Shown here: positions 1,470-43,558 of the stretch, in pieces | Layout: the number at the start of each line of letters is the position of its first letter | How positions within the stretch are numbered: position 1 is the stretch's first letter | Assembly: GCA_002841865.1 (NCBI GenBank) | Contig: PHBD01000026.1 | Location: 1-44,459 of the forward strand | Origin: Deltaproteobacteria bacterium HGW-Deltaproteobacteria-19 | GTDB taxonomy: Bacteria > Desulfobacterota > Syntrophia > Syntrophales > PHBD01 | Direction of reading: 5' to 3' | DNA: 44,459 bases | Notes under the pieces: model-generated | What the model was told of the DNA's origin: nothing | The model's input: only the letters and a program-made list of their open reading frames with translations | Database searches by the model: none | Position numbers and translations under genes: made by a program

Positions 1470-2543
1470 ATGAAAAAATCCGTTTATGCACTCTGCCTTG
1501 GAATCCTCTTTCTGCTGTTTACAAACGTGGCCTCATCCCAGGCGGCGGAGACGATTCTTCGCAGTTACTCCCTTTCCGATTATGGAATCCTTCAGTTCCA
1601 GGTGCCTGCGGACTGGAGCGACGAGGTCTCTCAGCCCAGGGATCGCCCGGAGCCGACGATCTCCTTCAAGCCGAAACGCGGCAAGCCCTTCAACGTCATG
1701 GTGACACCGCACTGGCCCCCCGGCAAAGGCATGTCGCCCCCCGGGGATGCCGCCCTGCGCGGGAGGGTGCAGAAGCGCGCGGAGGAGATCAAATCCGGGG
1801 CCGTGGAAGACAGAATCAATATTCGCAAACTGGAAGGAACCTCAGCCACCGGTTACTACTTTTCAGCAACGGACCGGGCACCGGAGGAAGGTGGATACAG
1901 ATACATGACCCAGGGCATCGCCCGCGCCGGGAACGTGCTCATGCACTTCACGATCCTGGCCAACGATGACCGGGAGGCCGCTGTCTCCGCCGGACTGGCC
2001 ATGGTGGGCAGCGCCGCCTGCAAGGAAAGTGAGGGCCGCAAGGATGCGGGGGCATCACGGCAGGCCGTGCAGATCGGCAAGAGAGATGGCCAGTATGTGC
2101 TGACCGCTCCCCCCGGCCGGATCGTCCTGAGCTTTCCCCAAAACGGCCTGATGCCGGACAAGTCGGCCGGCGGCGGAGGCGGCACCGATAACCCCGGCTA
2201 CTTCTATTTCGACGGAGGCGACAGCGGAATCATCCTTTCCGGGTGGTTCGAGCCGGCCGGGGCATTCGAAGACAGAGAAAAATACTTCGCCACGATCAGG
2301 AACAAGCTCTCCAATCTCGGTCCTGTCCTCGTCGAAAACATTACCACCCGGAAAATCGGCTTCTGGGATGTCATGACCTACTCCATGTTCCCCAAAGCAA
2401 AGCCGGAATGGGTCCAGTTCAATCTGCGGGCAAGCTGTGTACGGGAGGACACCTGGATTGACCTGCACATCTCCTCCAGCATCAGCCGCGACAAATTGAT
2501 TGCTTTCCTGAAAAGCGTCGGAATCGAAACGAAACAGCAATAG
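1470..2543 (+). CDS. secreted protein of unknown function, 357 aa
   Basis: The N-terminus is a clear Sec signal peptide: MKKS, a hydrophobic core, and a likely cleavage after SSQA at about residue 25. The ATG at 1470 was chosen because it is preceded by GGGAGAAAGGA and starts the signal peptide exactly; an in-frame upstream ATG at 1428 would add an implausible Arg-rich leader. The mature part looks like two alpha/beta halves, with a phrase of the type 'FQVPADW' in the first half (weakly reminiscent of PsbP/DcrB-like periplasmic domains) and a Gly-rich loop near residues 226-235. I do not recognise the family. It precedes the four-paralogue array by 95 bases on the same strand and may be co-expressed. 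Confidence 0.8.
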   Translation: MKKSVYALCLGILFLLFTNVASSQAAETILRSYSLSDYGILQFQVPADWSDEVSQPRDRPEPTISFKPKRGKPFNVMVTPHWPPGKGMSPPGDAALRGRVQKRAEEIKSGAVEDRINIRKLEGTSATGYYFSATDRAPEEGGYRYMTQGIARAGNVLMHFTILANDDREAAVSAGLAMVGSAACKESEGRKDAGASRQAVQIGKRDGQYVLTAPPGRIVLSFPQNGLMPDKSAGGGGGTDNPGYFYFDGGDSGIILSGWFEPAGAFEDREKYFATIRNKLSNLGPVLVENITTRKIGFWDVMTYSMFPKAKPEWVQFNLRASCVREDTWIDLHISSSISRDKLIAFLKSVGIETKQQ

Positions 2544-2578: not shown

Positions 2579-2619
2579 AATCGATCTCAGGTAGCGGATG
2601 TTCAACCGGATAAATCAAA
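2579..2619 (+). repeat. leader repeat A, copy 1
   Basis: A 41-base stretch just upstream of the first array gene that matches 3246-3286 at 38 of 41 positions. It lies between the stop of the preceding gene and the ribosome-binding site of paralogue 1. Its conservation outside coding DNA shows that the duplication unit carried its 5' leader. Confidence 0.85.
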
Positions 2620-2637
2620 GAAAGGAGAAGGATCATC

Positions 2638-3093
2638 ATGTGCAAAAAGAAGGGGGCGGTATTGTTTGCGGTATGGATTTTTTCGACACTGCTCGTATTT
2701 CTGATGACGGAGCGGGCAGGTGCATTTTGCATCTATAACAATTCGGACAGGCAAATGCATGCAATGCAAAGCTACGGCTTCGAAATCGGCAGAGGCTTCG
2801 ACAAGTTCATCAGTTCCGGCGATCATGAATGCTGCAACTGGAAAAACAAGGACTGCAACAAGAAAGGAAAGAGAGACAGTACGGTAAAGTTTAATATCGA
2901 TTACGCAAGATTTGTATTTTACTTTACGCCCTGCGCTGACTTTCCTATCAAGGCGGGCGGCTGGCTATCGATAAGCGGAGACATTCACAAGGGTTATCAA
3001 TGTGAAGCGTTCTTCGATGAATCGTCGGAAAAGGACGATGCTGACGAGGAACCATCCAAAGAACCATCCAAAGAACCATCTGAAAAGAAATGA
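2638..3093 (+). CDS. secreted cysteine-rich family protein, paralogue 1 (151 aa)
   Basis: First of four tandem paralogues. Sec signal peptide of about 29 residues ends in AGA, and the mature chain begins FCIYNN. Family landmarks follow: a CCNWKNKDCN block, a D-S-T-V-K-F strand, a C-x-DFP-x-KAGGW block, and a final CEAFFDES. Six mature cysteines in a conserved order suggest three disulfides. Unlike its sisters it ends in a charged tail built from 12-base DNA repeats that encode E-P-S-K units. GGAG precedes the ATG. I do not recognise a described family; the pattern suggests a small secreted beta-sandwich-like domain, which is inference. Confidence 0.85.
   Translation: MCKKKGAVLFAVWIFSTLLVFLMTERAGAFCIYNNSDRQMHAMQSYGFEIGRGFDKFISSGDHECCNWKNKDCNKKGKRDSTVKFNIDYARFVFYFTPCADFPIKAGGWLSISGDIHKGYQCEAFFDESSEKDDADEEPSKEPSKEPSEKK
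3048..3086 (+). repeat. 12-bp tandem repeat encoding E-P-S-K tail
   Basis: GAACCATCCAAA is repeated in frame, about three units with the last diverged, giving the acidic/basic tail E-P-S-K of paralogue 1. The other three paralogues end before this point, so the tail was added or kept only here. Confidence 0.75.
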
Positions 3094-3118
3094 CACAAGG
3101 AGATCCGCCAAACCGGGG

Positions 3119-3144
3119 AATGTCGGCAGCCTCACTTGCCGCCG
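3119..3144 (+). repeat. 3'-flank repeat with stem-loop, copy 1
   Basis: This 26-base stretch 25 bases after paralogue 1 matches 4726-4751, after paralogue 4, at 22 of 26 positions. In both copies it can form a GC-rich stem-loop. There is no T-run on the plus strand, so a classical Rho-independent terminator is not claimed. A second imperfect inverted repeat (3150-3180) follows. Confidence 0.6.
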
Positions 3145-3245
3145 TATCCCCGATCCCGGATACGGATTCCGGAGGATCGGGCTGTATGAAGACAGCAACG
3201 AAGCACCAATAGAGGAAGATAAGCCGATTCTGAGACATGACGGCC

Positions 3246-3286
3246 AATCGATCTCACGCAGCGGATGTTCAACCGGATCAATCAAA
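3246..3286 (+). repeat. leader repeat A, copy 2
   Basis: Second copy of the 41-base leader upstream of paralogue 2, with three mismatches to 2579-2619. It is followed by AGAGGT before the ATG at 3307. Confidence 0.85.
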
Positions 3287-3306
3287 AGGAAATAAGAGGT
3301 ATCGCC

Positions 3307-3717
3307 ATGTATAAAAAGAGGACGTCGGTTTTGTTTGCAGTATGGATCGTTTCGGTAATTTTTCTATGTCTGACGGCAGAGGGCGCAGATGCCTTTTGCG
3401 TCTATAACAATTCGGACTTGGAATTTCAGGTCCAGGAAACTCATGGTGGAAGGAAGTTCAAGGAGTTTATAAAAGTAATCAGCCCGGGAAACCATGCCTG
3501 CTGCAACTGGAAAAACAAGGACTGCAACGCGAAAGGGAAGAAAGACAGTACGGTCAAGTTCCTTGTCGCGTTCACGCAGGTGCTCCCGATCAACCTCTGT
3601 GTCGACTTTCCCGTCAAGGCGGGTGGATGGCTGTCGGTATCCGGTGATAGAAAGAGCCCATATAAGTGTGAAGCGTACTTTGATGAATCCTGGGACAAAG
3701 ACGGCGACGACCAATAA
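3307..3717 (+). CDS. secreted cysteine-rich family protein, paralogue 2 (136 aa)
   Basis: Signal peptide of about 29 residues ends in ADA; the mature protein starts FCVYNN. It carries the same landmarks as its sisters (CCNWKNKDCN, FPVKAGGWLSVSG, KCEAYFDES) and six mature cysteines. The ATG at 3307 opens the signal peptide; an upstream in-frame start at 3265 would place the leader repeat inside the protein. The signal peptide and C-terminal 17 residues are almost or fully identical to paralogue 3, while the segments after FCVYNN and before the C-x-DFP block differ strongly. Function unknown. Confidence 0.85.
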   Translation: MYKKRTSVLFAVWIVSVIFLCLTAEGADAFCVYNNSDLEFQVQETHGGRKFKEFIKVISPGNHACCNWKNKDCNAKGKKDSTVKFLVAFTQVLPINLCVDFPVKAGGWLSVSGDRKSPYKCEAYFDESWDKDGDDQ

Positions 3718-3750
3718 GTGTCCGGGCAACGATGAAAAAACAAAATGCCT

Positions 3751-3819
3751 CGACAGACCGATTTCGTTCATTGAGTGTTCATGCTGAAGAATCTATTCGA
3801 AGGAGGATCGTTTACCATG
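3751..3819 (+). repeat. leader repeat B, copy 1
   Basis: A 69-base leader ending at the ATG of paralogue 3, matching 4257-4325 (leader of paralogue 4) at about 59 of 69 positions, including the ribosome-binding site. The bases just after the stops of paralogues 2 and 3 are also similar, so the repeat unit extends upstream. Confidence 0.8.
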
Positions 3820-4224
3820 TGCAAAAAGAAGAAGGCTGTTTTGTTTGCGGTATGGATCGTTTCGGCAATTTTTTTATGCCTGACGGCAGAGGGCGCAGAT
3901 GCCTTTTGCGTCTACAACAATACGGACAAAGAATTTAATGCCGCGGAATGTCACGGTGGAAAGACAGCCAAAGGATTTGAAAAAAATCTCAAACCGGGAG
4001 ACCATGCCTGCTGCAACTGGGAAAACAAGGACTGCAACGAGAAAGGGAAGAAAGACAGTATCGTAGCGTTCAATGTCATGTTCACGCAGGTGGACATGGA
4101 TAACGCTTGTCTCGACTTTCCCGTTAAGGCGGGTGGATGGCTTTCGGTAAGCGGCAAAAATGGCAGATATAAGTGTGAAGCGTACTTTGATGAATCCTGG
4201 GACAAAGACGGTGACGACCAATAA
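3817..4224 (+). CDS. secreted cysteine-rich family protein, paralogue 3 (135 aa)
   Basis: Third tandem paralogue. Signal peptide ends in ADA before FCVYNN; a strong AAGGAGG lies about nine bases before the ATG at 3817, which decides this start over the in-frame 3775. Landmarks are CCNWENKDCN, FPVKAGGWLSVSG and KCEAYFDES, and the C-terminal tail WDKDGDDQ is identical to paralogue 2. It has seven mature cysteines: the six family positions plus one extra in the first variable segment (AECHGG), so one cysteine may be free or form a dimer. Function unknown. Confidence 0.85.
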   Translation: MCKKKKAVLFAVWIVSAIFLCLTAEGADAFCVYNNTDKEFNAAECHGGKTAKGFEKNLKPGDHACCNWENKDCNEKGKKDSIVAFNVMFTQVDMDNACLDFPVKAGGWLSVSGKNGRYKCEAYFDESWDKDGDDQ

Positions 4225-4256
4225 GTGTCTGTGCAACGACGAAAATCGGCATGCCC

Positions 4257-4325
4257 CGACAAACCGGTTTCGTTCATTGAATGTTCATGCTGAAAAATCT
4301 CGTACAAGGAGAATCGTTTGCCATG
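4257..4325 (+). repeat. leader repeat B, copy 2
   Basis: Second copy of the 69-base leader, ending at the ATG of paralogue 4, with AAGGAG as ribosome-binding site. Ten mismatches to 3751-3819. Confidence 0.8.
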
Positions 4326-4712
4326 AGTAAAAAAAAGAGTCTCGTTTCAACGGTATTGATTCTGTCCGTATTCGGTTTTTGTCTGATGGCGGGGAGCGCG
4401 GGCGCATTTTGTGTCTATAACAATACGGACCGGCCGATCCACGTCAAGGAAACGTACGGCTGCAATAATGTAAAATGTGCTGAATGGTGGGGCGTCCAGC
4501 CCGGAGATCACGTCTGCTGCAACTGGAAGAACAAGGACTGCAACATGGAAGGGAAGAGAGACAGCACCGTCAAGTTCATGATCCACGACATGAAACCGCA
4601 AAGCTTTGAGTGTCTGGGTTTCCCGGCCAAGGCGGGCGGATGGGTGTCGGTCACCGGGACCGAAGGGAATCGCCACTGCGAAGCGTTTTTCGAGGAATCG
4701 TCCGACAAGTGA
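4323..4712 (+). CDS. secreted cysteine-rich family protein, paralogue 4 (129 aa)
   Basis: Last and most divergent member. Signal peptide of about 28 residues ends in AGA; the mature chain begins FCVYNN and keeps CCNWKNKDCN, FPAKAGGWVSVTG and CEAFFEES. It has eight mature cysteines: the six family positions plus a pair (YGCNNVKC) in the first variable segment, which could form a fourth disulfide. The start at 4323 is fixed by the AAGGAG in leader B and by the signal peptide. It is followed by a perfect GC-rich stem-loop. Confidence 0.85.
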   Translation: MSKKKSLVSTVLILSVFGFCLMAGSAGAFCVYNNTDRPIHVKETYGCNNVKCAEWWGVQPGDHVCCNWKNKDCNMEGKRDSTVKFMIHDMKPQSFECLGFPAKAGGWVSVTGTEGNRHCEAFFEESSDK

Positions 4713-4728
4713 AGTACCGGCCAAAAAT

Positions 4729-4753
4729 GCCGGCGGCCTCCCGTGCCGCCGGC
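4729..4753 (+). terminator. stem-loop ending the paralogue array
   Basis: GCCGGCGG pairs perfectly with CCGCCGGC across a 9-base loop, 16 bases after the stop of paralogue 4. It corresponds to the diverged hairpin after paralogue 1. No T-run follows on the plus strand; on the minus strand a T-run does follow, but no minus-strand gene ends here. It may act as a weak or RNA-stabilising 3' end. Confidence 0.45.
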
Positions 4754-4793
4754 GTCCCGGCCGCTGACTGATCATTGGCAAGGAGCAGGCTGC

Positions 4794-5927
4794 ATGAAGA
4801 AGGAAACCATCTGCGTTCACGGCGGCACGTACCGCGATGCCGCGACGCGGGGCGTCAACACGCCGATTTTCACGTCCTCCTCGTTCGAATACCTGGACCG
4901 GGACGACATCCCTTATCCCCGCTACTTCAACACACCGAATCAGGACGCCGTGGTCCGCAAGCTCTGCGCGCTGGAAGGCGCGGAAGACGGCGTCCTGTTC
5001 AGCTCCGGCATGGCCGCCGTCAGCTCGGCGATCCTCGCCTTCGCCGGGGCGGGGGACCATGTCGTCATGATGGACGAGCTGTACGGCGGAACCCACGCCT
5101 TCGCCACGGACATGTTCGACCGGCTGGGGATCCGCCACACCTTCGCGGCCACGGACGCCGCGGCGGTAGCGGATGCCGTGACGCCGCGGACGAAAGTCAT
5201 CGTGATCGAGTCGCCCACGAACCCCCTGCTGGGGATCATCGACATCCGGCGGGTGGCGCAGATCGGCCGGGAACGGGGCATCGTCACGATCCTCGACAAT
5301 ACCTTCGCCACGCCGGTGAACCAATGCCCCCTGCAGCTCGGCATCGACGTGGTCGTCCACAGCGGAACCAAGTACCTGGGCGGCCACAGCGACCTGAGCT
5401 GCGGCGCCGCCCTGACCTCGCGCCCCCATGCCTCTAAAATCCGCGCCGCGGCCCGCCACCTGGGCGGCAGCCTGAACGCCATGATGTGCTACCTCCTCGA
5501 ACGGAGCCTGAAGACGCTGTCCCTCCGGGTCGAACGCCAGACGGCAAACGCCGCCCGCATCGCCGCCTATCTGTCCGCCCATGCATCCGTTTTCCGCGTG
5601 AACTATCCCGGCCAGCCGGACTCGCCGGGGCATGAAATCGCCCGGTCCCAGATGACGGGATTCGGGGCCATGCTGTCCTTTGAACTGGACGAGCGGATCG
5701 TCTCCGCCGCCTCGTTCCTGCGCCGTCTCCGGATCATCCGCCCGGCTGTCAGCCTGGGCGGGGTGGAGACGCTGATCTGCGCCCCCGCCGGGACCTCCCA
5801 CGCGAAGATCTCCCCGGAGGAGCGCCGGAGGATCGGCATTTCGGACTCGCTCCTGCGGCTCTCCGTCGGGATTGAAGATGCGGACGACCTGATCGCGGAT
5901 CTGGACCAGGCGATGGAAAAAGCGTAG
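4794..5927 (+). CDS. trans-sulfuration family PLP enzyme (cystathionine gamma-synthase/lyase type), 377 aa
   Basis: Cytoplasmic PLP-dependent enzyme of the Cys/Met metabolism family, acting on cystathionine, O-acyl-homoserine or methionine-type substrates. The PLP-binding lysine is K193 in the SGTKYLGGHSD motif. The aspartate that contacts the pyridine nitrogen lies in TILDNTFATP (about 168), the ESPTNPLLGI motif is at 139-148, and a YPRYFN motif near 41-46 supplies the phosphate-binding Tyr and Arg. Length is normal for the family. The ATG at 4794 has AAGGAG upstream; the frame extends further 5' without a good start. Sequence alone does not separate synthase, gamma-lyase and methionine gamma-lyase activities. 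Followed after 9 bases by a GNAT gene. Confidence 0.9.
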   Translation: MKKETICVHGGTYRDAATRGVNTPIFTSSSFEYLDRDDIPYPRYFNTPNQDAVVRKLCALEGAEDGVLFSSGMAAVSSAILAFAGAGDHVVMMDELYGGTHAFATDMFDRLGIRHTFAATDAAAVADAVTPRTKVIVIESPTNPLLGIIDIRRVAQIGRERGIVTILDNTFATPVNQCPLQLGIDVVVHSGTKYLGGHSDLSCGAALTSRPHASKIRAAARHLGGSLNAMMCYLLERSLKTLSLRVERQTANAARIAAYLSAHASVFRVNYPGQPDSPGHEIARSQMTGFGAMLSFELDERIVSAASFLRRLRIIRPAVSLGGVETLICAPAGTSHAKISPEERRRIGISDSLLRLSVGIEDADDLIADLDQAMEKA

Positions 5928-21241: not shown

Positions 21242-22867
21242 ATGAGACATCCGGTTGTTCGGCAGAACGGAGACGAAACAGAGAGTGAGGCGGGGCGGTC
21301 CGACGGGACGCAAAAATCCGCCCATGTCCGTTCGGTATCCTTCGACGAACGGGTTCCCGTCCCCCGCAGCCTTCTTGTAAACCTCAAACACGAATACCTG
21401 CACCGCGAGGGATGGGTACCCCTGGAGCGGCGGGAAGGACGGGTCTCGGTCCTGGTGGACGACCCGGACGACCTGCCGCGGCGGGACAGCATCGAAAACC
21501 TGCTGAAGACGAAACAGATCGAGTACTGCCTGGCATCCCGGGAAGACATTCTGAAGTTCATCGATCATTTCTACGGAACGGCCTACCTGAAGGAAGCCTC
21601 CAGAACAAAGGAAAATGCGGCTGAGAACGGAGATCGGCGGGACGAATTCGTGGACATCACCGAGACGGACGGAACCATCGTCCGCCTGGTGAACGAGATC
21701 ATCAACGAGGCCTGCCTGCGACGCGCCTCGGACATCCATATCGAGCCGGACGTCCGGGACCGGGAGGTAATCGTCCGGTTCCGCGTCGACGGCGAGTGCT
21801 TTCCGTACCGCTCGCTGCCCTACGACTACCGCGCGGCGATTGTCTCGCGCATCAAGATTCTCTCCAACCTGGATATCACGGAGCGGCGCCTGCCCCAGGA
21901 CGGGAAGATCCGGTACACGCGGCCCAACGGCGAAGACATCGAACTCCGGGTGGCCACCATGCCGACCCACGGCTACGTGGAGGACGTGGTCCTGAGGATC
22001 CTGACCCGGGGAAAGATCATGACCCTGGACGAACTGGGGATGCCGCCGGATACCCTGGCCCTGTTCATCGAGCAGCTCGACAAGCCCTACGGGTTGATCC
22101 TGATCGTCGGACCCACCGGTTCCGGCAAGACCACGACGGCCCACGCCGCTCTCCACCGGCTGAACCGCCCCAACACCAAGATCTGGACCGCCGAAGATCC
22201 CGTCGAGATCACGCAGAAGGGGATACGCCAGGTCCAGATGCACCACAAGATCGGTCTGGATTTCGGTACGGCCATGCGGGCCTTCCTGCGCTCCGATCCG
22301 GACATCATCATGGTGGGGGAAATGCGGGATTACGAAACGGCCAAGATGGGCGTCGAGGCGTCCACGACGGGCCATCTCGTCCTCTCCACCCTGCACACGA
22401 ACAATGCCCCGGAGACCATCGTCCGCCTCCTGGACATGAAGATCGACCCTTTCGGTTTCGCCGACTCGCTTCTGTGCGTCCTGGCCCAGCGTCTCGTCCG
22501 GCGCCTCTGCGTCCACTGCCGCGAATCCCTCCCCATCAGCCGGGAGGAGTGGGACGACATGGTGCGGAACTACGGCGAGAAGGCCTTCGCCCCCCTGAAC
22601 ATGGAGTATTCGGCGGATCGCCGGATCAACCGTGCAAGAGGCTGCCCGGAGTGCAACGGAACCGGATACCGCGGCATGATGGGCATCTATGAGCTTCTGG
22701 TGGCCAGCGACGGCATCAAGCAGATGATCATCAGCCGGAAATCCATTGCCTCCATCCGGAAGACCGCCACGGCGGAGGGGATGAACACCCTGCTGCAGAG
22801 CGGAATCCGGAAGGTGCTGGAGGGAGAGACGGACTTCATCGAGATCCTGAGCGTCTGCCTGCGCTGA
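21242..22867 (+). CDS. gspE: type II secretion / type IV pilus assembly ATPase (GspE/PilB family), 541 aa
   Basis: Hexameric cytoplasmic ATPase that powers pseudopilus or pilus assembly. An N-terminal domain (about 35-120) precedes the two-lobe motor: ASDIHIEP (162-169), Walker A GPTGSGKTTT (290-299), Asp box TAEDPVEI (316-323), Walker B SDPDIIMVGE (351-360), and His box GHLVLSTLHT (377-386). A zinc tetracysteine is formed by CVHC (423-426) and CPEC (468-471). Length and motif set are complete. It is separated by 11 kb from the gspI-J-K-L-M-C operon, whose products it could serve. The Shine-Dalgarno is weak. GspE and PilB cannot be told apart with certainty. Confidence 0.9.
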   Translation: MRHPVVRQNGDETESEAGRSDGTQKSAHVRSVSFDERVPVPRSLLVNLKHEYLHREGWVPLERREGRVSVLVDDPDDLPRRDSIENLLKTKQIEYCLASREDILKFIDHFYGTAYLKEASRTKENAAENGDRRDEFVDITETDGTIVRLVNEIINEACLRRASDIHIEPDVRDREVIVRFRVDGECFPYRSLPYDYRAAIVSRIKILSNLDITERRLPQDGKIRYTRPNGEDIELRVATMPTHGYVEDVVLRILTRGKIMTLDELGMPPDTLALFIEQLDKPYGLILIVGPTGSGKTTTAHAALHRLNRPNTKIWTAEDPVEITQKGIRQVQMHHKIGLDFGTAMRAFLRSDPDIIMVGEMRDYETAKMGVEASTTGHLVLSTLHTNNAPETIVRLLDMKIDPFGFADSLLCVLAQRLVRRLCVHCRESLPISREEWDDMVRNYGEKAFAPLNMEYSADRRINRARGCPECNGTGYRGMMGIYELLVASDGIKQMIISRKSIASIRKTATAEGMNTLLQSGIRKVLEGETDFIEILSVCLR

Positions 22868-33778: not shown

Positions 33779-34540
33779 TCACTGGGAACCCAACCGATTC
33801 GTGCGGTAAACCTCGGCCTTTTTCCGCTGGATCTCGATCCGCTGGAGCCGTGTGCTGGGCAACCCGCCGGGCAGGACGGCCGTTTTCCCCGCGTCGGTAC
33901 TCGCAGTCGCCGGAGAGGTCGGTGCTGCTGCTTTCCCGACATTCTTGGCGGCCGGTGGCAACCCTCCAGGACCTGAAGGAGCGGCTGCCGTCGCGGTGCC
34001 TGGCGCCGCGGCAGGAGGCGCGACCGCAGCGCTGGGCTTCCGCTTCTCCGCATCGCTGAGCACCACCACGATCCGGTCGTCTCCCCGAACGAGGGCGACC
34101 TGGTCCGCGCGAACTTCCTGAAGGACATACCCGCTGACGGACTCCCCTTTCCGGACCATCCGCGGGCGCTTTCCCCTCCCCGTCGTCGTATAGGGCGATT
34201 TCCTGTCCTCCAGGAAGGCGATGGTCATGTCCCCCGAGATGATCGTTCCGTAGAGAAATAACTCCGGCCGGGGCACTGCCTTGCGTTCCTGCGGAATGCG
34301 GCGCTCCGGGTGGAAGGGGTTCTGGTTGCTGATGACCGCGTAGTCGGCGGGAGACGGGCTCTGGGCCGGCGTCACCGGATCCGCCGCCGGCGGTGCCTGC
34401 GACTGCACGGTGGGGAGTTGCGGCTTCACATCCAGGTTCACGAAGGGAACGGCCATGAAATAGGCCACGGCGACGACCGCCGCCAACAGCAGGCCGTTGA
34501 TCACGTTGACGCTCTGCATCAGGTATTGCATACCGGGCAT
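33779..34540 (-). CDS. gspC: GspC-like type II secretion protein, 253 aa
   Basis: Inner-membrane clamp protein that links the platform to the secretin. A TM helix (about 13-33) is followed by a Pro-rich linker, then the GspC homology region (about 65-165) with the landmark SNQNPFHPE and the pattern LFLYGTIISGDMTIAFLED ... RKGESVSGYVLQEV. The C-terminus is an Ala/Pro-rich stretch with no visible PDZ domain. It is the last gene of the operon, starting one base after the gspM stop. Confidence 0.78.
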   Translation of the reverse strand: MPGMQYLMQSVNVINGLLLAAVVAVAYFMAVPFVNLDVKPQLPTVQSQAPPAADPVTPAQSPSPADYAVISNQNPFHPERRIPQERKAVPRPELFLYGTIISGDMTIAFLEDRKSPYTTTGRGKRPRMVRKGESVSGYVLQEVRADQVALVRGDDRIVVVLSDAEKRKPSAAVAPPAAAPGTATAAAPSGPGGLPPAAKNVGKAAAPTSPATASTDAGKTAVLPGGLPSTRLQRIEIQRKKAEVYRTNRLGSQ

Positions 34541-34541
34541 G

Positions 34542-35096
34542 TCAGCGGCCTCCCGTCAATCCGGAAACCTTCAGCCGGACCGTCAGGTCCCTGGGCTCCC
34601 GAAAATTCCGGATCCTCGCATCCAACTCCCGGGCAACCAGATAGGGAGTCTGCGTCTCAACGGCGTAAAGGACCTCCACAAGGGCCGCCGTGTCGGGAAG
34701 AACGGCGTCGAGGGTCACCGTGATCAGCTTGAACGTTCCGGCATCTTCCGGCTTTTCGACGCGCTCACTGGATATGCTCCCCCCCCGGGCCGTGATCATC
34801 CCCTTGACGACACCCTGGAGGGTAGCGGCGGCAACGGAGGGGGTCTGCCCCTCGATGATCTTGGATTCCTCGGCCATGCGGGCTTCCACCAGGGAGGCGA
34901 GCCTCGTCTCCATCTGCGGCCGGTCGGCAATCAACGCCATGTACTTGGCCAGAATCTTCGTCTTCACGGCGAGCGCCTCCTCCCGGTCGACCAGCTCCGA
35001 CTGGACGCGCAGGTAACCCTGGTCGTACACCACAGCCCCGAGGAGGACGAACATGAGCACTACCGCGACAAGAAGGGTCTTACTCTTTCTGTGCAT
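34542..35096 (-). CDS. gspM: GspM/PilO-like type II secretion protein, 184 aa
   Basis: Bitopic inner-membrane platform protein. A short basic cytoplasmic N-terminus precedes one TM helix (about 8-24), a coiled-coil region rich in Glu/Lys (35-80), and a ferredoxin-like periplasmic domain (about 95-184) as in GspM and PilO. The start at 35096 overlaps the end of gspL by 17 bases. Assigned from size, topology and position between gspL and gspC more than from motifs. Confidence 0.72.
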   Translation of the reverse strand: MHRKSKTLLVAVVLMFVLLGAVVYDQGYLRVQSELVDREEALAVKTKILAKYMALIADRPQMETRLASLVEARMAEESKIIEGQTPSVAAATLQGVVKGMITARGGSISSERVEKPEDAGTFKLITVTLDAVLPDTAALVEVLYAVETQTPYLVARELDARIRNFREPRDLTVRLKVSGLTGGR

Positions 35097-36621
35097 CACG
35101 GGCCTTTCCGCCGGCCAGGCTTTCAATTTCCATCTTGATGCTGAACCGGTCCATGTTCAGCCGGGTATCCCGGGAGGTGGGAGCGGCAAATTCGACCTTC
35201 CGGAAATGGGGGGAGACTTCGAACTTGGGAAGGATCTCCGTTGCCGTGGATGCATATCCCTCGATCTCCACGTTGTTGTCCATGATCCGCAGCCGAGAGA
35301 GCCAGGCCGTCTTCGGGAGGACGGTCGTAATTTCGCGGATCAGAATCAGCCTCATGGGGTGATTGGCCTTGAACGCACCGATCGCGGCGATTTGCTTCTC
35401 CACCCCCTCGACGTCCCGCTTCAGGACCTCGATCTTCGCAATCTCGCCCCGGCGGGACGCGATCTCACGGTCCACCGCCTCGATCTTCCATTCCACAAAC
35501 TGCAGGGGCGACACCAGCCAGAGAATGCCCACGGCGGTCAGGACGGCGAGGAGGACCATTGTCACCGCCAGAGGCGCTTTCCGGGGATTGTGGACGCCCC
35601 GGCTGAGGAGGTTCATTCCCTCCGCTCCCGGCCACAGGGATTCCAGGGCCCCCCCCAGGGCGACATGGGGGATGTCCACCCCTTTTCCTGCCGGCAGGAG
35701 GAGGGGCGCCAGATCACTGTCCCGGATGTACCGGACGGGTGCCTGAATGAGATCCCTCAAGCCGGACCATGCTTCGGCCTCCGCCTCGGCATAAACATAG
35801 ACCCGGGGCGGCGGGCCGCCCGATGCCGGAACGCGATCCAGAACGGCCTGCACGGCATCGGCGAGGACTCCCACGGCGGCTTCTCCATCCCGGGCCGGGA
35901 GGTTTCCCGCAAAGGAGTCCTCCCATCGGCCGTCGCGAACCCATCCTCCCTCATAGGCCCCGGCACGGATCCCTACGAAGACGGTGTTTCCGCTTCTGTG
36001 GAGGAAATGGCCGAGGGTACCGAGGGCGGAAACGTGAACGGTCACCCGGTCGACGGTAACGCCACGCTTCCGGAGGGCTGCCAGATAAGGCTGGACCATA
36101 TCCTCCCGGACGGCTGCAAGCATGATCCGGACCGGGCCTTCCCCGCTCTCGAGAGCCTGAAAATCATAGAGGGCCTGCTCTGCGGGTAGTGGCGTGAGCC
36201 GGTCCAGTTCGAATGTGACGACGTCGGGAAGGTTCTCCCGGACCGCCGGCGGAAACTCAATCTTCCGGATAATGCACCAGGCCTTGGGGATTACGAGGCT
36301 TATCGGCGTACCCGCGGCGTTCAGCTCGTTGACGGCCAGAAGGATGGATGCAGCAACATTCTCCGGCGTCGGGTACCGGCCCGGTTCGAAGGCGTAGCGC
36401 CGGACGCCCCGCAGCCGGATCCTCGACAGGAACCGGGACGCGTAAACAACGGACATTCCTCCTTCCTCCAGGAGGATAGCGACGCTCCGGAGGGGGGCGA
36501 CGCGTTCGTCGGCCAGGCTGAAGGTGAGGGCCCTCCAGAGGATACCAAACCACCGCAGAACGCGGTCCGCGATGCCCGAGGCCAGGGAGGTCGTCCTGTT
36601 CAGCATTTCCGCCGTTGTCAT
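35080..36621 (-). CDS. gspL: GspL-like type II secretion protein (PilM-PilN fusion type), 513 aa
   Basis: Inner-membrane platform protein that recruits the GspE ATPase. Residues about 40-340 form an actin-like (PilM-type) cytoplasmic domain, a single TM helix spans 349-371, a coiled coil runs 378-415, and a PilN-like periplasmic domain ends the chain. The phrase LPAEQALYDFQ is typical of the first domain. The ATG at 36621 overlaps the gspK stop (ATGA); the reading frame extends far upstream in the gspK/gspJ region but that part is out-of-frame shadow. Coupled to both neighbours. Confidence 0.8.
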   Translation of the reverse strand: MTTAEMLNRTTSLASGIADRVLRWFGILWRALTFSLADERVAPLRSVAILLEEGGMSVVYASRFLSRIRLRGVRRYAFEPGRYPTPENVAASILLAVNELNAAGTPISLVIPKAWCIIRKIEFPPAVRENLPDVVTFELDRLTPLPAEQALYDFQALESGEGPVRIMLAAVREDMVQPYLAALRKRGVTVDRVTVHVSALGTLGHFLHRSGNTVFVGIRAGAYEGGWVRDGRWEDSFAGNLPARDGEAAVGVLADAVQAVLDRVPASGGPPPRVYVYAEAEAEAWSGLRDLIQAPVRYIRDSDLAPLLLPAGKGVDIPHVALGGALESLWPGAEGMNLLSRGVHNPRKAPLAVTMVLLAVLTAVGILWLVSPLQFVEWKIEAVDREIASRRGEIAKIEVLKRDVEGVEKQIAAIGAFKANHPMRLILIREITTVLPKTAWLSRLRIMDNNVEIEGYASTATEILPKFEVSPHFRKVEFAAPTSRDTRLNMDRFSIKMEIESLAGGKARDAQKE

Positions 36622-37586
36622 GGGGAAAGGTCCGCCGGGCTCTTGTAATAAAGGTAACGGTAAGGATCCCGCCCCTCGATGGCCACCGTCGCGACGATGC
36701 TGTACCCCTTTTCGCCGCCGGGGCGCATGCCCGTGGATTCGATGGCGTAGATCGTGGACGTTCCCTGCGCCCTCGCGTCCACGTAAGGCGCCATTCGGGC
36801 ATATCCGGCCCCGAGGATTTCCTGAAGGTCGGCGATCCCGTTGATCGTCGCCGAAGACCGGAACGCGATGAGCTGTGTTGCCATCTCCGGGTCCATCCCG
36901 GGCAGGGAGAGGAGGACCTCCTTCGACGCGGCGGACAGGTTGATCCGGGCCGCCTTGCCTTGTGCCGTCAGGTGGCGGATGATGCCGTCCGCCCGCTCCG
37001 TCCCGTACAGAATGTCCGGCGTAATGCCTTTCACGAGGATCAGTTCCTCCAGGGTCTCGAAGTCGGCGTTCCGCGGGCGGTAGGGCTTCGGGAGCGACTG
37101 ATAATACTCGCTCTCCGCCCCGCTGAGGCGGTGGAGGTCGTCGGGGTCCTTCCAGTCCAGGATCGAATCGACGATCCCGTCGGCCTGCTCGGGGGTTGCC
37201 CCGTGCCGCAGCAGGAGGTTCTTCAGGATGATGCCGGAGGAATCGGTCAGGGCGTTGAGCGAAATCTTGCCCGACTCGTCGATGATCCGCACGGAGCACC
37301 TGCCGCCCGCCATCTCGATCCGATGGGGCGTCCCGTCGGCTTTCCATGCCGCTCGCCCCTCCAGAACGACCGACTGGCCCCGGTTCCTGGAACTGTAGAG
37401 GATTTCCATGATGCCCCGCTCGATGCCCGCCTCGGCCAGATACTTCTGCCGGATCGCCTCCCGGAATGCCAGGGTCCCCTGGGTCTCGGCCCTCGTCATC
37501 ACGGCAAAAGAAAAGGCCGTCACGGTGAGGATTGCCATAACCCACAGGACGACCAGGAGTGCGATGCCTTTCCGGGAAATCGACAT
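36618..37586 (-). CDS. gspK: GspK minor pseudopilin, 322 aa
   Basis: Large tip pseudopilin of the type II secretion pseudopilus. The prepilin-type N-terminus is RKGIALLVVLWVMAIL: cleavage after the Gly, and no Glu at position 5, the hallmark of GspK. The body has the pattern SGKISLNALTDSS and two SAM-like/helix-hairpin-helix-type modules (ETLEELILVKGIT; LPGMDPEMATQLIAFR). The ATG at 37586 shares one base with the gspJ stop (TGATG). Confidence 0.88.
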   Translation of the reverse strand: MSISRKGIALLVVLWVMAILTVTAFSFAVMTRAETQGTLAFREAIRQKYLAEAGIERGIMEILYSSRNRGQSVVLEGRAAWKADGTPHRIEMAGGRCSVRIIDESGKISLNALTDSSGIILKNLLLRHGATPEQADGIVDSILDWKDPDDLHRLSGAESEYYQSLPKPYRPRNADFETLEELILVKGITPDILYGTERADGIIRHLTAQGKAARINLSAASKEVLLSLPGMDPEMATQLIAFRSSATINGIADLQEILGAGYARMAPYVDARAQGTSTIYAIESTGMRPGGEKGYSIVATVAIEGRDPYRYLYYKSPADLSP

Positions 37587-38200
37587 CACGGCCCTGTCCC
37601 TCCCGCAACGGCGCTCATGCGCCCCTGGATGCGAATAGGAAACAGCTCCGTCCTCTCCTTCCCTCCGGAGGCGACCAGGAAGCGGATTTGCCTGGGCAGG
37701 GCCGTTCCGTCCTTCATTGCATCCAGCCACTGGCCTTTCTCGTCGGCAGCGTCGCGGTGAAAGTATTCGAACCACATCCGGTCCGCCTCGATCAGCCGGG
37801 TGTCGACGTCTCCCTCGATCCCCGGGACGCTCTCGCGGACCCGGAGATGAGCCTTTCCGTCGGATCCCTCCTCGATCCGGTACTCGACGACGACATAGCC
37901 CTCTCGACCGCCCCGGATAGACCGGCTGGTGGCGAACCGGAGCGATGCACCGTCGCCGCGAAACGAAAACCGCTTCCCCTTTTCCGTGTCCTCCTTCAGG
38001 GGAAGCAGGGACTGGATCTGCGCATCCATGATCGACAGGACCGCCCGAAAGCGTTCCTGCTCCTCCATTTTCCGTTCTCCCGCCGTGACCGACCGGCCGG
38101 CCAGGCGCAAAGCCCCGAGCATGATGACCAGAATCACCACCAGCATGGAGAGGGAAACCAGCAGTTCCAGGAGCGTAAACCCCCGCTGCGATGTGCTCAT
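37586..38200 (-). CDS. gspJ: GspJ minor pseudopilin, 204 aa
   Basis: Prepilin-type leader MSTSQRG followed by FTLLELLVSLS with the conserved Glu5, then a TM helix and a beta-rich pseudopilin body. Order after gspI and before gspK fits GspJ. It starts three bases after the gspI stop; translation of the three minor pseudopilins is therefore coupled. Confidence 0.85.
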   Translation of the reverse strand: MSTSQRGFTLLELLVSLSMLVVILVIMLGALRLAGRSVTAGERKMEEQERFRAVLSIMDAQIQSLLPLKEDTEKGKRFSFRGDGASLRFATSRSIRGGREGYVVVEYRIEEGSDGKAHLRVRESVPGIEGDVDTRLIEADRMWFEYFHRDAADEKGQWLDAMKDGTALPRQIRFLVASGGKERTELFPIRIQGRMSAVAGGTGP

Positions 38201-38203
38201 GCT

Positions 38204-38620
38204 TCAAACCCGATCTTCCTGGAGCATCCGGTCGACCAGTTTCATCGATTTCAGTTCGAGGCTCCGCTCCCGCCCCCCCGCAGTCCAGCGGATCGTCAGG
38301 CTGACCTCCATCATCCGGACCGGCAGGCCCTCCGTCCGCTCCGCCAGCGTCTCGGCCATGGAGACGTCCATCCGGTAGCCGTCGTCGGTCGTCTCGGTCC
38401 AGGTCCGCTCCGCCGGGCGGACATCGGCGAGAAGTTCCCGGAGCCTCGCGTCGGCCCGTGCAGAGGCCGCCGTTACGTCCGCGGAAACGGAGATGCTGCG
38501 CAGGTTTGCCGCGAAGAGCTGCAGGATCAGGGTCCCGGCAATGGCCATGACGGCCAGGGCCACCAGGACCTCCAGGAGGGTGAATCCTGCCCGCCTTCCC
38601 CGATCTCGTAGAAACCGCAT
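38204..38620 (-). CDS. gspI: GspI minor pseudopilin, 138 aa
   Basis: Prepilin leader MRFLRDRGRRAG followed by FTLLEVLVALAVMAI with Glu5; compact pseudopilin body. The ATG at 38620 is preferred since the leader is then of normal length, although a start at 38653 is possible. It is the first gene of the operon: no gspG or gspH lies upstream. Confidence 0.85.
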   Translation of the reverse strand: MRFLRDRGRRAGFTLLEVLVALAVMAIAGTLILQLFAANLRSISVSADVTAASARADARLRELLADVRPAERTWTETTDDGYRMDVSMAETLAERTEGLPVRMMEVSLTIRWTAGGRERSLELKSMKLVDRMLQEDRV

Positions 38621-38814
38621 CCCCTGCCTCCCGCTGCCCGGTGCGCAAGGCATCCCGGCGGGCGCTCGCTCACGCTTACGACTGTTGCATGATCCAGGCG
38701 CGTTTTGAATCGGGGCAAGACTTGATGGGGGCGGGCAGAACTCTTACTTGCCTGTCGGGAAATGGATGAAGGCCCAAGGGGAGCGGCGGGTGTGAGGGAG
38801 GGAATACGGCGGGA

Positions 38815-41196: not shown

Positions 41197-43278
41197 TCAC
41201 TGGACCATCCCCCAGTCCTTCTCCAGGTACACCTTCACACTGCGGCCGATGAAATCGAAGAGGTCTCCCGGGTGAGCGATGTCCTGGGCCACGTCCCGCG
41301 TCCAGGGGGAGAGGGCGTAGCTGTAGGATGTGCGCGAATCCCGGCCCAGGAAGAGCCATATCGGGATGGACACCGCGATCCCCTTGTCGTGGTAGCCCTG
41401 GTTGAAGCTGTCCTTGAAGATCGACGTGTCCGAAACGCTGTACCAGGCCGAGAGGACCACGCCGCCGAAGCTCTTCGAGACGGTCACCCGGACCCCGTTA
41501 TCCCCCGCCAGGAACCGCCCGGCCTTCATGTCGATGTTTGCGTCCAGCTCCGGGATGCTCAGGCGGGCGTTGAAGAAGCCCGTCGTGTAGTAGTCCTTGT
41601 AGTCGTTCTCCTTGAACCGGAAGGGGCTCTTCGGGTCCCGCTTCTTCACCGCACTCCCGCTCAACCCCACGAGAATGCGCCCCCCGAAGAGGGGCTTCGC
41701 GACCTCTGCGTCGACACCGGTGTACTGGATCTCCAGGATTCCGGCGGAGAGCCGCGTGTAGATCTCGTGATCCGCTTTCCAGGTCTGGCTGACCAGGAGG
41801 CTGCTCAAGATGAATTTCTCCTGAATGTAGTCCACCAGGTCCGAGCGGACGGCGTTGGAGGAAGGCGTGAGGGGGGAGGAGATGTTGTTGGCAGGGAACG
41901 TCTCGCTCGCCGCCAACAGCATCCCTCCCGGCCACGGCGAAACGCTGGCCCAACCGCTCAGCCCGAAGCGGTATTTGAAGAAGCCCGAGGGGTCGTTCAG
42001 GTAGGTCTTGAAATCGGGCTTCAGGCCGTAGTCGAAATACTCCCTGTGCCTGATCACGGCAGGAGTGGGCTCCCTCGCGTCGGCCCGCAGCTCCGAGACG
42101 GACAGGAACTCCCGGAGGCTCAGTGCCTTCGAGGCGTAAAGCTGAATGTCCCCGCGGTTCGTGGAGAAGGTGGTCATCGGAATGCCCAGCCGGGTGAGCG
42201 TCACCCGGACGTCCCTTATCTCCGGCGGTGCCGTCCGGTCCACGATCCGGAGGATCACTCCCAGGGCCTTCATGTCGTAGAAGTAGCGCCGATTGGCCGC
42301 CTGGATCCGGAGATCGCCTCCCTGGGCGAGGACGGCTATGTCGCTGAAGCCGGAGCTGTACAGCGCCTCCGTGATCCGCTCCTCCAGGGGGCTTGCACGC
42401 ATCTGGGTGGTTTCCCGGTAGGCGGCGTCGACGATAGGGATCAGCGGCTGTCCGAGTTCGAAGGTGAGGCTCAGGTTGGCTCCCACCGTGTCGCCTCGCT
42501 GGTAGCTCAGGGCCAGCTCCATCCAGTCCCAGGGCTTCAGGCGGAGGCCGAAGTTGAACTTCGACCGGACGGGCTCGGGGAAATAACCTCGCGCCGGGTC
42601 GTTCTGGAATGTATGGTAAGGCGTGGGGTCGTACTCCACCATCAGGGAGAGCCAGTCCACCGGCGAGAACTGGACCCCGGCGAACCAGTTCGCGTCCTCC
42701 CACCACTGACGTGGGCTGGTGAGGATCTCCGCCTTGAAGGAATCCCCCGTCCCGACGTCCGTGAGTTCCCGCTTCCCAAAGCGCCCGTTGGCGAAACCCA
42801 GGGTGAAGTCGAAGGGGTAGACCTGCTTGCTGACAACAAGGTACTGGGAGCTGTAGAGGCGCGTCCCATGGGGGTCCATGAATCCGACGGCCACCGCGGG
42901 GAAATACTTCATCTCCCGGATGAGCTGGAGCTTGAGGTCCACGGCCTTGTCCTTGAAGTTGCCGTAATCCGAGCCTTGCCCGGCAAACGCCTGGACGCCG
43001 ATGATCTCCGTGACGCGGCCGTCGATCTCGACCCCCGGCAGGGGGCTCACGGCCCCGTAGTAGTAGCGGTAGGGATGAACCTGGGCGGCCCCGAGGCGAT
43101 AGGTCCCTTCCTTGAGGACCCGGGCCGTGGGGACCGCCATCAAACCCGTGCCGCCCCAGTTGGAGGCACCCGTGAAGGGCGCGTCGGCAGAGCGTACCGC
43201 CGTCGGAAAAACAACCAGCGTGGCCAGGAGGAACAGCCACGCTGCCGTGTATCTGTGAGATTTGCCGCTGTCCGTCAT
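41197..43278 (-). CDS. yjbH: YjbH-family outer-membrane exopolysaccharide protein, 693 aa
   Basis: Large outer-membrane protein of the YjbH/GfcD family involved in exopolysaccharide or capsule export and assembly. Signal peptide (about 9-30, ending VRSADA) then the family N-terminal phrase NWGGTGLMAVPTARVL, an extended amphipathic strand series, GFMDPHGTRLYSSQYLV, and a C-terminal barrel half with a conserved IPIWLFLGRDSR motif. Length is normal. GGAGG precedes the ATG at 43278 and overlaps the upstream small gene's stop region; 10 bases separate the two. No yjbE, F or G homologue is seen in the window. Confidence 0.88.
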   Translation of the reverse strand: MTDSGKSHRYTAAWLFLLATLVVFPTAVRSADAPFTGASNWGGTGLMAVPTARVLKEGTYRLGAAQVHPYRYYYGAVSPLPGVEIDGRVTEIIGVQAFAGQGSDYGNFKDKAVDLKLQLIREMKYFPAVAVGFMDPHGTRLYSSQYLVVSKQVYPFDFTLGFANGRFGKRELTDVGTGDSFKAEILTSPRQWWEDANWFAGVQFSPVDWLSLMVEYDPTPYHTFQNDPARGYFPEPVRSKFNFGLRLKPWDWMELALSYQRGDTVGANLSLTFELGQPLIPIVDAAYRETTQMRASPLEERITEALYSSGFSDIAVLAQGGDLRIQAANRRYFYDMKALGVILRIVDRTAPPEIRDVRVTLTRLGIPMTTFSTNRGDIQLYASKALSLREFLSVSELRADAREPTPAVIRHREYFDYGLKPDFKTYLNDPSGFFKYRFGLSGWASVSPWPGGMLLAASETFPANNISSPLTPSSNAVRSDLVDYIQEKFILSSLLVSQTWKADHEIYTRLSAGILEIQYTGVDAEVAKPLFGGRILVGLSGSAVKKRDPKSPFRFKENDYKDYYTTGFFNARLSIPELDANIDMKAGRFLAGDNGVRVTVSKSFGGVVLSAWYSVSDTSIFKDSFNQGYHDKGIAVSIPIWLFLGRDSRTSYSYALSPWTRDVAQDIAHPGDLFDFIGRSVKVYLEKDWGMVQ

Positions 43279-43288
43279 CGCCTCCGGT

Positions 43289-43558
43289 CTAAAGCACCGT
43301 CCTCGCGATGGATGGCGGCCATGTCTTGCAGCCATCCTGCGTGCAGACCTCAGCGCTGGCCTGGCAGTACCACTTGACGGGGTTGAAGGCGGGCTGACCG
43401 TTGGTGAATTCGATCCGCAGGCCCGCGATGCAGTGTGGGTGCACAAAGGAATCGGGTTTGCAGCAGAAGGGGTTTGGTTCCTTGAGTCTCGTCCCGTCGA
43501 GGCCGAATCCGCAGTTGCAGTCGCTGATGACGATGATCTTTTCGGGAATCGCGGGCAT
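43289..43558 (-). CDS. small eight-cysteine protein upstream of yjbH, 89 aa
   Basis: A strong AAGGAG six bases before the ATG at 43558 and tight linkage to yjbH support a real gene. Cysteines fall as C14, C16, C32, C33, C43, C65, C72 and C77 in patterns D-C-N-C-G, F-C-C-K, H-C and C-x4-C, with two histidines (40, 42) nearby. No signal peptide is visible: the N-terminus MPAIPEKIIVIS looks cytoplasmic. It could bind metal (two Zn sites) or be a disulfide-rich peptide. I do not recognise the family. A REP-like hairpin lies upstream, between it and galE. Confidence 0.72.
   Translation of the reverse strand: MPAIPEKIIVISDCNCGFGLDGTRLKEPNPFCCKPDSFVHPHCIAGLRIEFTNGQPAFNPVKWYCQASAEVCTQDGCKTWPPSIARTVL

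Follow-up and report, generated by a model that had tools for sequence, protein, structure and literature searches.

A tandem gene array encoding a previously unnamed family of exported, disulfide-rich proteins with a predicted beta-sandwich fold

We analysed a stretch of 44,459 nt (the window) from the genome of Deltaproteobacteria bacterium HGW-Deltaproteobacteria-19. Close to its start lies a row of four genes on the plus strand, at positions 2638–3093 (copy 1), 3307–3717 (copy 2), 3817–4224 (copy 3) and 4323–4712 (copy 4), with products of 151, 136, 135 and 129 aa, respectively. All four proteins carry signal peptides of 28–29 residues that end in A-x-A, and their mature parts open with FC[VI]YNN. 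A lipobox ([LVI][ASTVI][GAS]C) at the end of the signal peptide was found in none of the four; instead, a cleavage-like A-x-A is followed directly by F-C. Six cysteines are conserved across the family, and each mature array protein has six to eight. When copy 2 was used as a query against its own genome, the other three copies were matched at E = 4.7e-65, 5.1e-47 and 3.0e-36, far beyond chance, and their pairwise protein identity to copy 2 was 74, 54 and 50%. The original prediction, which had been made from the sequence alone, proposed four consecutive genes encoding signal peptides and a common core; all four were found where it had placed them.

The copies differ in detail. Copy 1 has six cysteines in its mature part and a charged EPSK tail, where a perfect 12-base tandem repeat (GAACCATCCAAA, 2.7 copies) at 3049–3080 yields an EPSK-repeat seen in this copy only. 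The mature domain of copy 2 has an orthologue in a genome of the same genus (G001, the sister genome below). Copy 4 has an extra cysteine pair in the first of the variable segments described below, and was the window copy matched by the profile of a distant subfamily B (E = 8.6e-9). Copies 2 and 3 are nearly identical in the leader and the C-terminal end and diverged in the middle segments, as had been noted from the sequence.

Upstream of the array is a gene for an exported 357-residue protein without a Pfam or NCBIfam match (1470–2543, plus strand); its synonymous divergence (dS) from its orthologue, 0.215, is roughly double the value for the array and for the downstream gene. Downstream is a gene for a Cys/Met-metabolism PLP enzyme (4794–5927, plus strand; PF01053, E = 2e-124). 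Farther along, the window contains a type II secretion or type IV pilus-type cluster (33779–38653; T2SSK, T2SSM, PilN/PilM-like proteins and pseudopilins), a separate T2SSE ATPase (21242–22867) and a large YjbH-type exopolysaccharide protein (41197–43446; PF06082, E = 1e-149). The profile matches of the secretion components were at E = 5e-116 (T2SSE), 1e-17 (T2SSK) and 1e-12 (T2SSM).

None of the four array proteins had a meaningful match in Pfam-A, NCBIfam, PHROGs or the PDB sequences, in line with the suggestion that the family was unrecognised. A profile of the array subfamily likewise found nothing convincing among PDB sequences, the stand-alone relatives that were tested had no Pfam-A or NCBIfam match at the curated cut-off, and paper searches returned no published description of the family. 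We predicted the structure of the mature part of copy 3 (3904–4221) with AlphaFold, using 12 aligned proteins, window copies and relatives, as input. This structure prediction, which had been proposed as a check, gave a confident eight-strand beta-sandwich (mean pLDDT 85.3, pTM 0.78). The four genes form a tandem multigene array of a hitherto unnamed family of exported, disulfide-rich proteins with a predicted beta-sandwich fold, which the conserved CCNW-x-NKDCN and KAGGW parts would hold together.

The predicted fold is a common sandwich arrangement. In Foldseek searches with the array model, no E-value fell under 0.014 in the PDB or under 0.0036 among viral models (BFVD). A longer cyanobacterial relative was also modelled (pLDDT 80.5), and its PDB matches were equally weak, including thaumatin-like proteins from E = 0.06. 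Reading a function from the fold was thus rejected as a lead, neither model having a significant Foldseek match in the PDB and the first none in BFVD. Transthyretin/Ig-like sandwiches (the PepT2 extracellular domain, AlgF domains and cytolysin domain 4) have a strand arrangement similar to that of the array model, with VIA Z scores up to 8.4 (rmsd 4.5 over 95 residues), although this is about the range reached by unrelated sandwiches, the Foldseek E-value was not below 0.014 and there is no sequence similarity to the array. Thaumatin-like proteins (PF00314) are secreted and disulfide-rich, as is the array family, and several weak Foldseek rows linked their fold to the model of the cyanobacterial relative (E = 0.06–0.4 and above, TM-score about 0.3). 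However, thaumatin-like proteins have ten or sixteen conserved cysteines, whereas the array family has six, and PF00314 was absent among the profile matches up to E = 1 for the array proteins and the relatives tested. Plant SPH proteins (PMC6439154) are also small, secreted and disulfide-bonded with many members per genome, but the array has no sequence or Pfam match to them, and their fold appeared in one weak Foldseek row against the array model (6g7g, E = 0.29, TM 0.43).

The sequences between the genes record how the row was built. Leader A of copy 1, with its ribosome-binding site, occupies 2579–2637 (plus strand) and forms the upstream outer edge of the array, matched by the sister genome. 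Leader A is common to copies 1 and 2 (38 of 41 bases identical between 2579–2619 and 3246–3286) and leader B to copies 3 and 4 (58 of 69 bases), as originally described; leader B, however, is part of a spacer of about 99 bases that separates both copies 2 and 3 (3718–3816) and copies 3 and 4 (4225–4322), and that recurs as the middle spacer of the sister genome. The 3′ hairpin flank attributed to copies 1 and 4 is present after both (folding z = −3.0 and −4.5); after copy 4 (4713–4775, minimum free energy −33.7 kcal/mol) it forms the downstream outer edge of the array. The possibility of a structured RNA leader was rejected, as there was no Rfam match and leader A and the two leader-B spacers folded no better than shuffled sequences; promoter signals were not above shuffles either.

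The spacer between copies 1 and 2 (3094–3306) consists of the array's two outer edges fused together and includes pieces of both neighbouring genes. Its first half (3113–3199) contains the hairpin and the first codons of the PLP-enzyme gene (ATGAAGA...), and matched 4726–4807 (blastn E = 2.7e-8) and the corresponding edge in the sister genome (E = 7e-11). Its second half (3197–3306) contains the end of the upstream gene's coding sequence (CAATAG) and leader A of copy 2, and matched 2528–2634 (E = 2e-16) and the sister's edge (E = 4e-18). The two halves overlap by three bases (AAC). Read plainly, this fossil junction records that the entire array was duplicated in tandem long ago, the joint sharing at most a few bases: the ancestral array, flanked by the upstream gene and the PLP-enzyme gene, doubled as a unit and left the fused-edge spacer between copies 1 and 2. 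Copies 2 and 3 come from a later duplication that included the spacer, because the spacer that follows copy 2 and the one that follows copy 3 are duplicates of each other. The flanks that the original prediction saw as shuffled are indeed shared between copies, but the fossil junction and the spacer copies point to nested tandem duplications instead of shuffling.

The sister genome has the same neighbours around two array genes rather than four, with long aligned flanking blocks that are 89–94% identical. Its first array gene is a hybrid of the copy 1 leader and the copy 2 mature domain: upstream of codon 16, 26 of the 33 informative two-way sites match copy 1, and from nt 49 on, all but six informative sites match copy 2. 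On a maximum-likelihood tree, the retained copies pair one-to-one with their orthologues. In the mature part, copies 2 and 3 had a synonymous divergence of 0.29, and pairs involving copy 1 or 4 exceeded 1.5; the corresponding values were 0.09–0.10 between array orthologues of the two genomes and 0.11–0.22 for the flanking genes. Because the divergence between paralogues exceeds that between orthologues, the paralogues predate the separation of the two species, and we interpret the two-gene state as loss rather than gain, on the strength of divergence and one sister genome. On that reading, the sister lost copies at least once through recombination within the near-identical stretch of leader and signal peptide, which deleted one mature domain and kept one reading frame. 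Where its copy 3 was lost, informative sites in the spacer and gene start were mixed as to a leader crossover with copy 4.

An array of distant relatives unlinked to the window array lies on another contig of the same genome (C31; L035:6474–11228). It comprises eight tandem genes of subfamily B (ACCFYN ... HKCRPGKGG ... KHGW), of which the sister genome has seven. Comparison of the subfamily A (window array) and subfamily B profiles gave E = 3.5e-6 and a probability of 87%. The sister's seventh gene combines the 5′ flank of b8 with the mature domain of b7 and switches at the leader; its flank matches b8 at informative sites almost throughout, and from nt 106 on its sites match b7 with one exception. 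In the mature part, dS is 0.43 between b7 and b8 and 0.07 between b7 and its orthologue. The subfamily-B array of the sister thus lost a copy by the same leader-anchored route. In both arrays, neighbouring leaders resemble each other more closely than the mature parts do, and ordinary homologous recombination therefore explains the breakpoints without a special hotspot; that exchange falls in the leader probably reflects no more than its being the longest identical stretch shared by neighbouring copies. The unequal recombination postulated from the window is borne out by the sister-genome hybrid and the second array, with copy counts of four versus two and eight versus seven in the two species.

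Three segments of the protein are variable (residues 38–60, 86–99 and 114–118 of copy 3). Between copies 2 and 3, these held about 39 nonsynonymous and 8 synonymous changes, versus 15 and 11 in the rest of the protein (Fisher p = 0.026). The comparison of variable segments with the core, suggested beforehand, revealed excess amino-acid change between paralogues only (copies 2 and 3). The ratio in the segments was about 1.4, not clearly above neutrality and short of proof of positive selection; relaxed constraint may account for the excess. The copy 2 orthologues were identical in amino-acid sequence across segments 1 and 2, and segment 3 held three nonsynonymous changes. The copy 4 orthologues differed by six nonsynonymous and five synonymous changes in segment 1 and by none in the other two, their variable segments changing more slowly than synonymous sites. 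The subfamily-B orthologues were mostly under constraint, b4 and b6 not clearly so (dN/dS about 1 and 0.7). The proposed diversification of the segments is thus seen between paralogues but is not supported as a continuing process, given the almost unchanged segments of the copy 2 orthologues and the slow change in those of copy 4. As divergence among the copies came before the two species separated, and the variable segments of orthologues have hardly changed since, the repertoire is mostly old and fixed, without ongoing variation of the surface-antigen type.

The base composition of the array is AT-rich, as had been remarked: GC content was 0.45–0.53 in the array genes versus 0.59–0.67 in their neighbours, and third-position GC 0.55–0.68 versus 0.69–0.92. 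The subfamily-B array also has low third-position GC (0.57–0.63 versus 0.78–0.88 in its flanks). Such values, together with the sporadic distribution of relatives, could indicate acquired DNA, as the original prediction suggested. We nevertheless regard a recently acquired foreign island as highly improbable: the array lies between the same genes in two species, its orthologues have diverged at synonymous sites (0.09–0.10) nearly as far as the downstream flanking gene (0.11), and no phage, plasmid or viral copy was found. A recent phage or plasmid origin was rejected in searches of phages, plasmids and viral contigs, which gave no match.

Matches to the family were found in four of the 155 genomes of the window's own order and in five of the 395 of its phylum. 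Relatives belonging to subfamily A occur as a tandem pair in Syntrophorhabdus, singly in one Desulfarculaceae genome and in four cyanobacteria, and as five dispersed genes in one Rhodocyclaceae genome, with none in the 199 other Rhodocyclaceae genomes sampled. In one cyanobacterium, the family domain stands N-terminal to a predicted secreted, signal-peptide-bearing calcineurin-like phosphoesterase (L068:1423–2742; PF00149, E = 2e-5), an arrangement seen once. The adjoining gene (L068:356–1156) is aerolysin-like at E = 9e-4, below the Pfam cut-off.

A further row of 13 small exported genes was identified in another genome (G206, L037:7222–13017), of which 12 are of an AYAIYNH type (subfamily C) and one, inside the row, is B-like. 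Subfamily-C matches numbered 16 in this genome and 0–5 in the other members of the genus. The subfamily-C profile compared to A with a probability of 5% and to B with 45%, the latter resting on the signal peptide and YN start, and the subfamily-B profile reached one subfamily-C protein at E = 8e-4. Subfamily C is possibly a member of the same superfamily as A and B. Apparent subfamily-C fusions in two genomes (G345 and G427) were discarded, as the gene start lies within a longer open frame, and the portion of that frame ahead of the start overlaps another gene. In two genomes, the subfamily-C gene is accompanied by a similar short gene (L075:1428–1817 and L076:1430–1861) that looks cytoplasmic and, by eye, HicB-like.

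The best fit to these observations, held tentatively, is that the array proteins are extracellular or periplasmic ligand-binding or targeting domains, since export, conserved cysteines, the predicted sandwich, stand-alone copies without conserved partners, the enzyme fusion and the copy-specific segments together fit such a role; the phosphoesterase fusion was counted for targeting. Against it, no conserved neighbour gene that would name a pathway was seen by eye. The proteins would pass via Sec to the periplasm and perhaps beyond it via a type II secretion system, some genes of which are in the window, a possible route out of the cell for folded proteins that the array products may use. Type II secretion substrates carry no simple sequence signal. 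The three less conserved segments would give each copy its own binding partner, i.e., a sugar, lipid or protein outside the cell.

Two other functions were weighed against binding or targeting. The proteins could serve secreted antagonism or defence against it, as effectors or as inhibitors of foreign lytic enzymes, with different targets for different copies. They are small, disulfide-rich and exported, the tandem paralogues show excess amino-acid change in three segments, subfamily-C copy number ranges from 0 to 16 within one genus and one relative adjoins the aerolysin-like gene. We consider this role unlikely, however, as no conserved partner (immunity) gene was seen by eye, no copy was found on phages, plasmids or viruses, and the variable segments are stable between most orthologues, if mixed in the subfamily-B array. 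It seems quite unlikely, too, that the copies share one job, with duplication raising output and the variable segments drifting under weak constraint. Such a dosage effect would agree with the ratio near 1 in the variable segments of copies 2 and 3 and with the loss of copies in the sister species, which shows no sign of replacement; yet the copy-specific segments are conserved in orthologues, a cysteine pair sets copy 4 apart and a charged tail copy 1, and long-separated copies are kept one-to-one on the tree. Extending the binding or targeting reading beyond the window, we see some possibility, with more doubt than confidence, of an unnamed superfamily of exported beta-sandwich binding domains across Desulfobacterota, cyanobacteria and Rhodocyclaceae, sometimes enzyme-fused, in which the leader acts as a recurrent recombination joint that swaps or deletes mature domains and leaves lineage-fixed repertoires.

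Pathogens are the usual setting in which tandem exported-protein families of variable copy number are studied. Families of tandem exported paralogues are a known kind; the protein family of this array has no model in the libraries searched. The case concerns environmental bacteria, in whose DNA a duplication junction and two copy-loss hybrids are still readable. It offers a defined family to model and name, and a clean case of how a repeated signal-peptide stretch can drive whole-domain turnover. The nuSa-alpha lipoprotein-like (lpl) cluster of S. aureus likewise consists of rows of tandem paralogues of small exported proteins (PMC4470592). The array differs from the lpl cluster in its lack of a lipobox, in its environmental hosts and in that no shared Pfam family was found, and resembles it in its head-to-tail paralogues of variable copy number (4 versus 2 and 8 versus 7).
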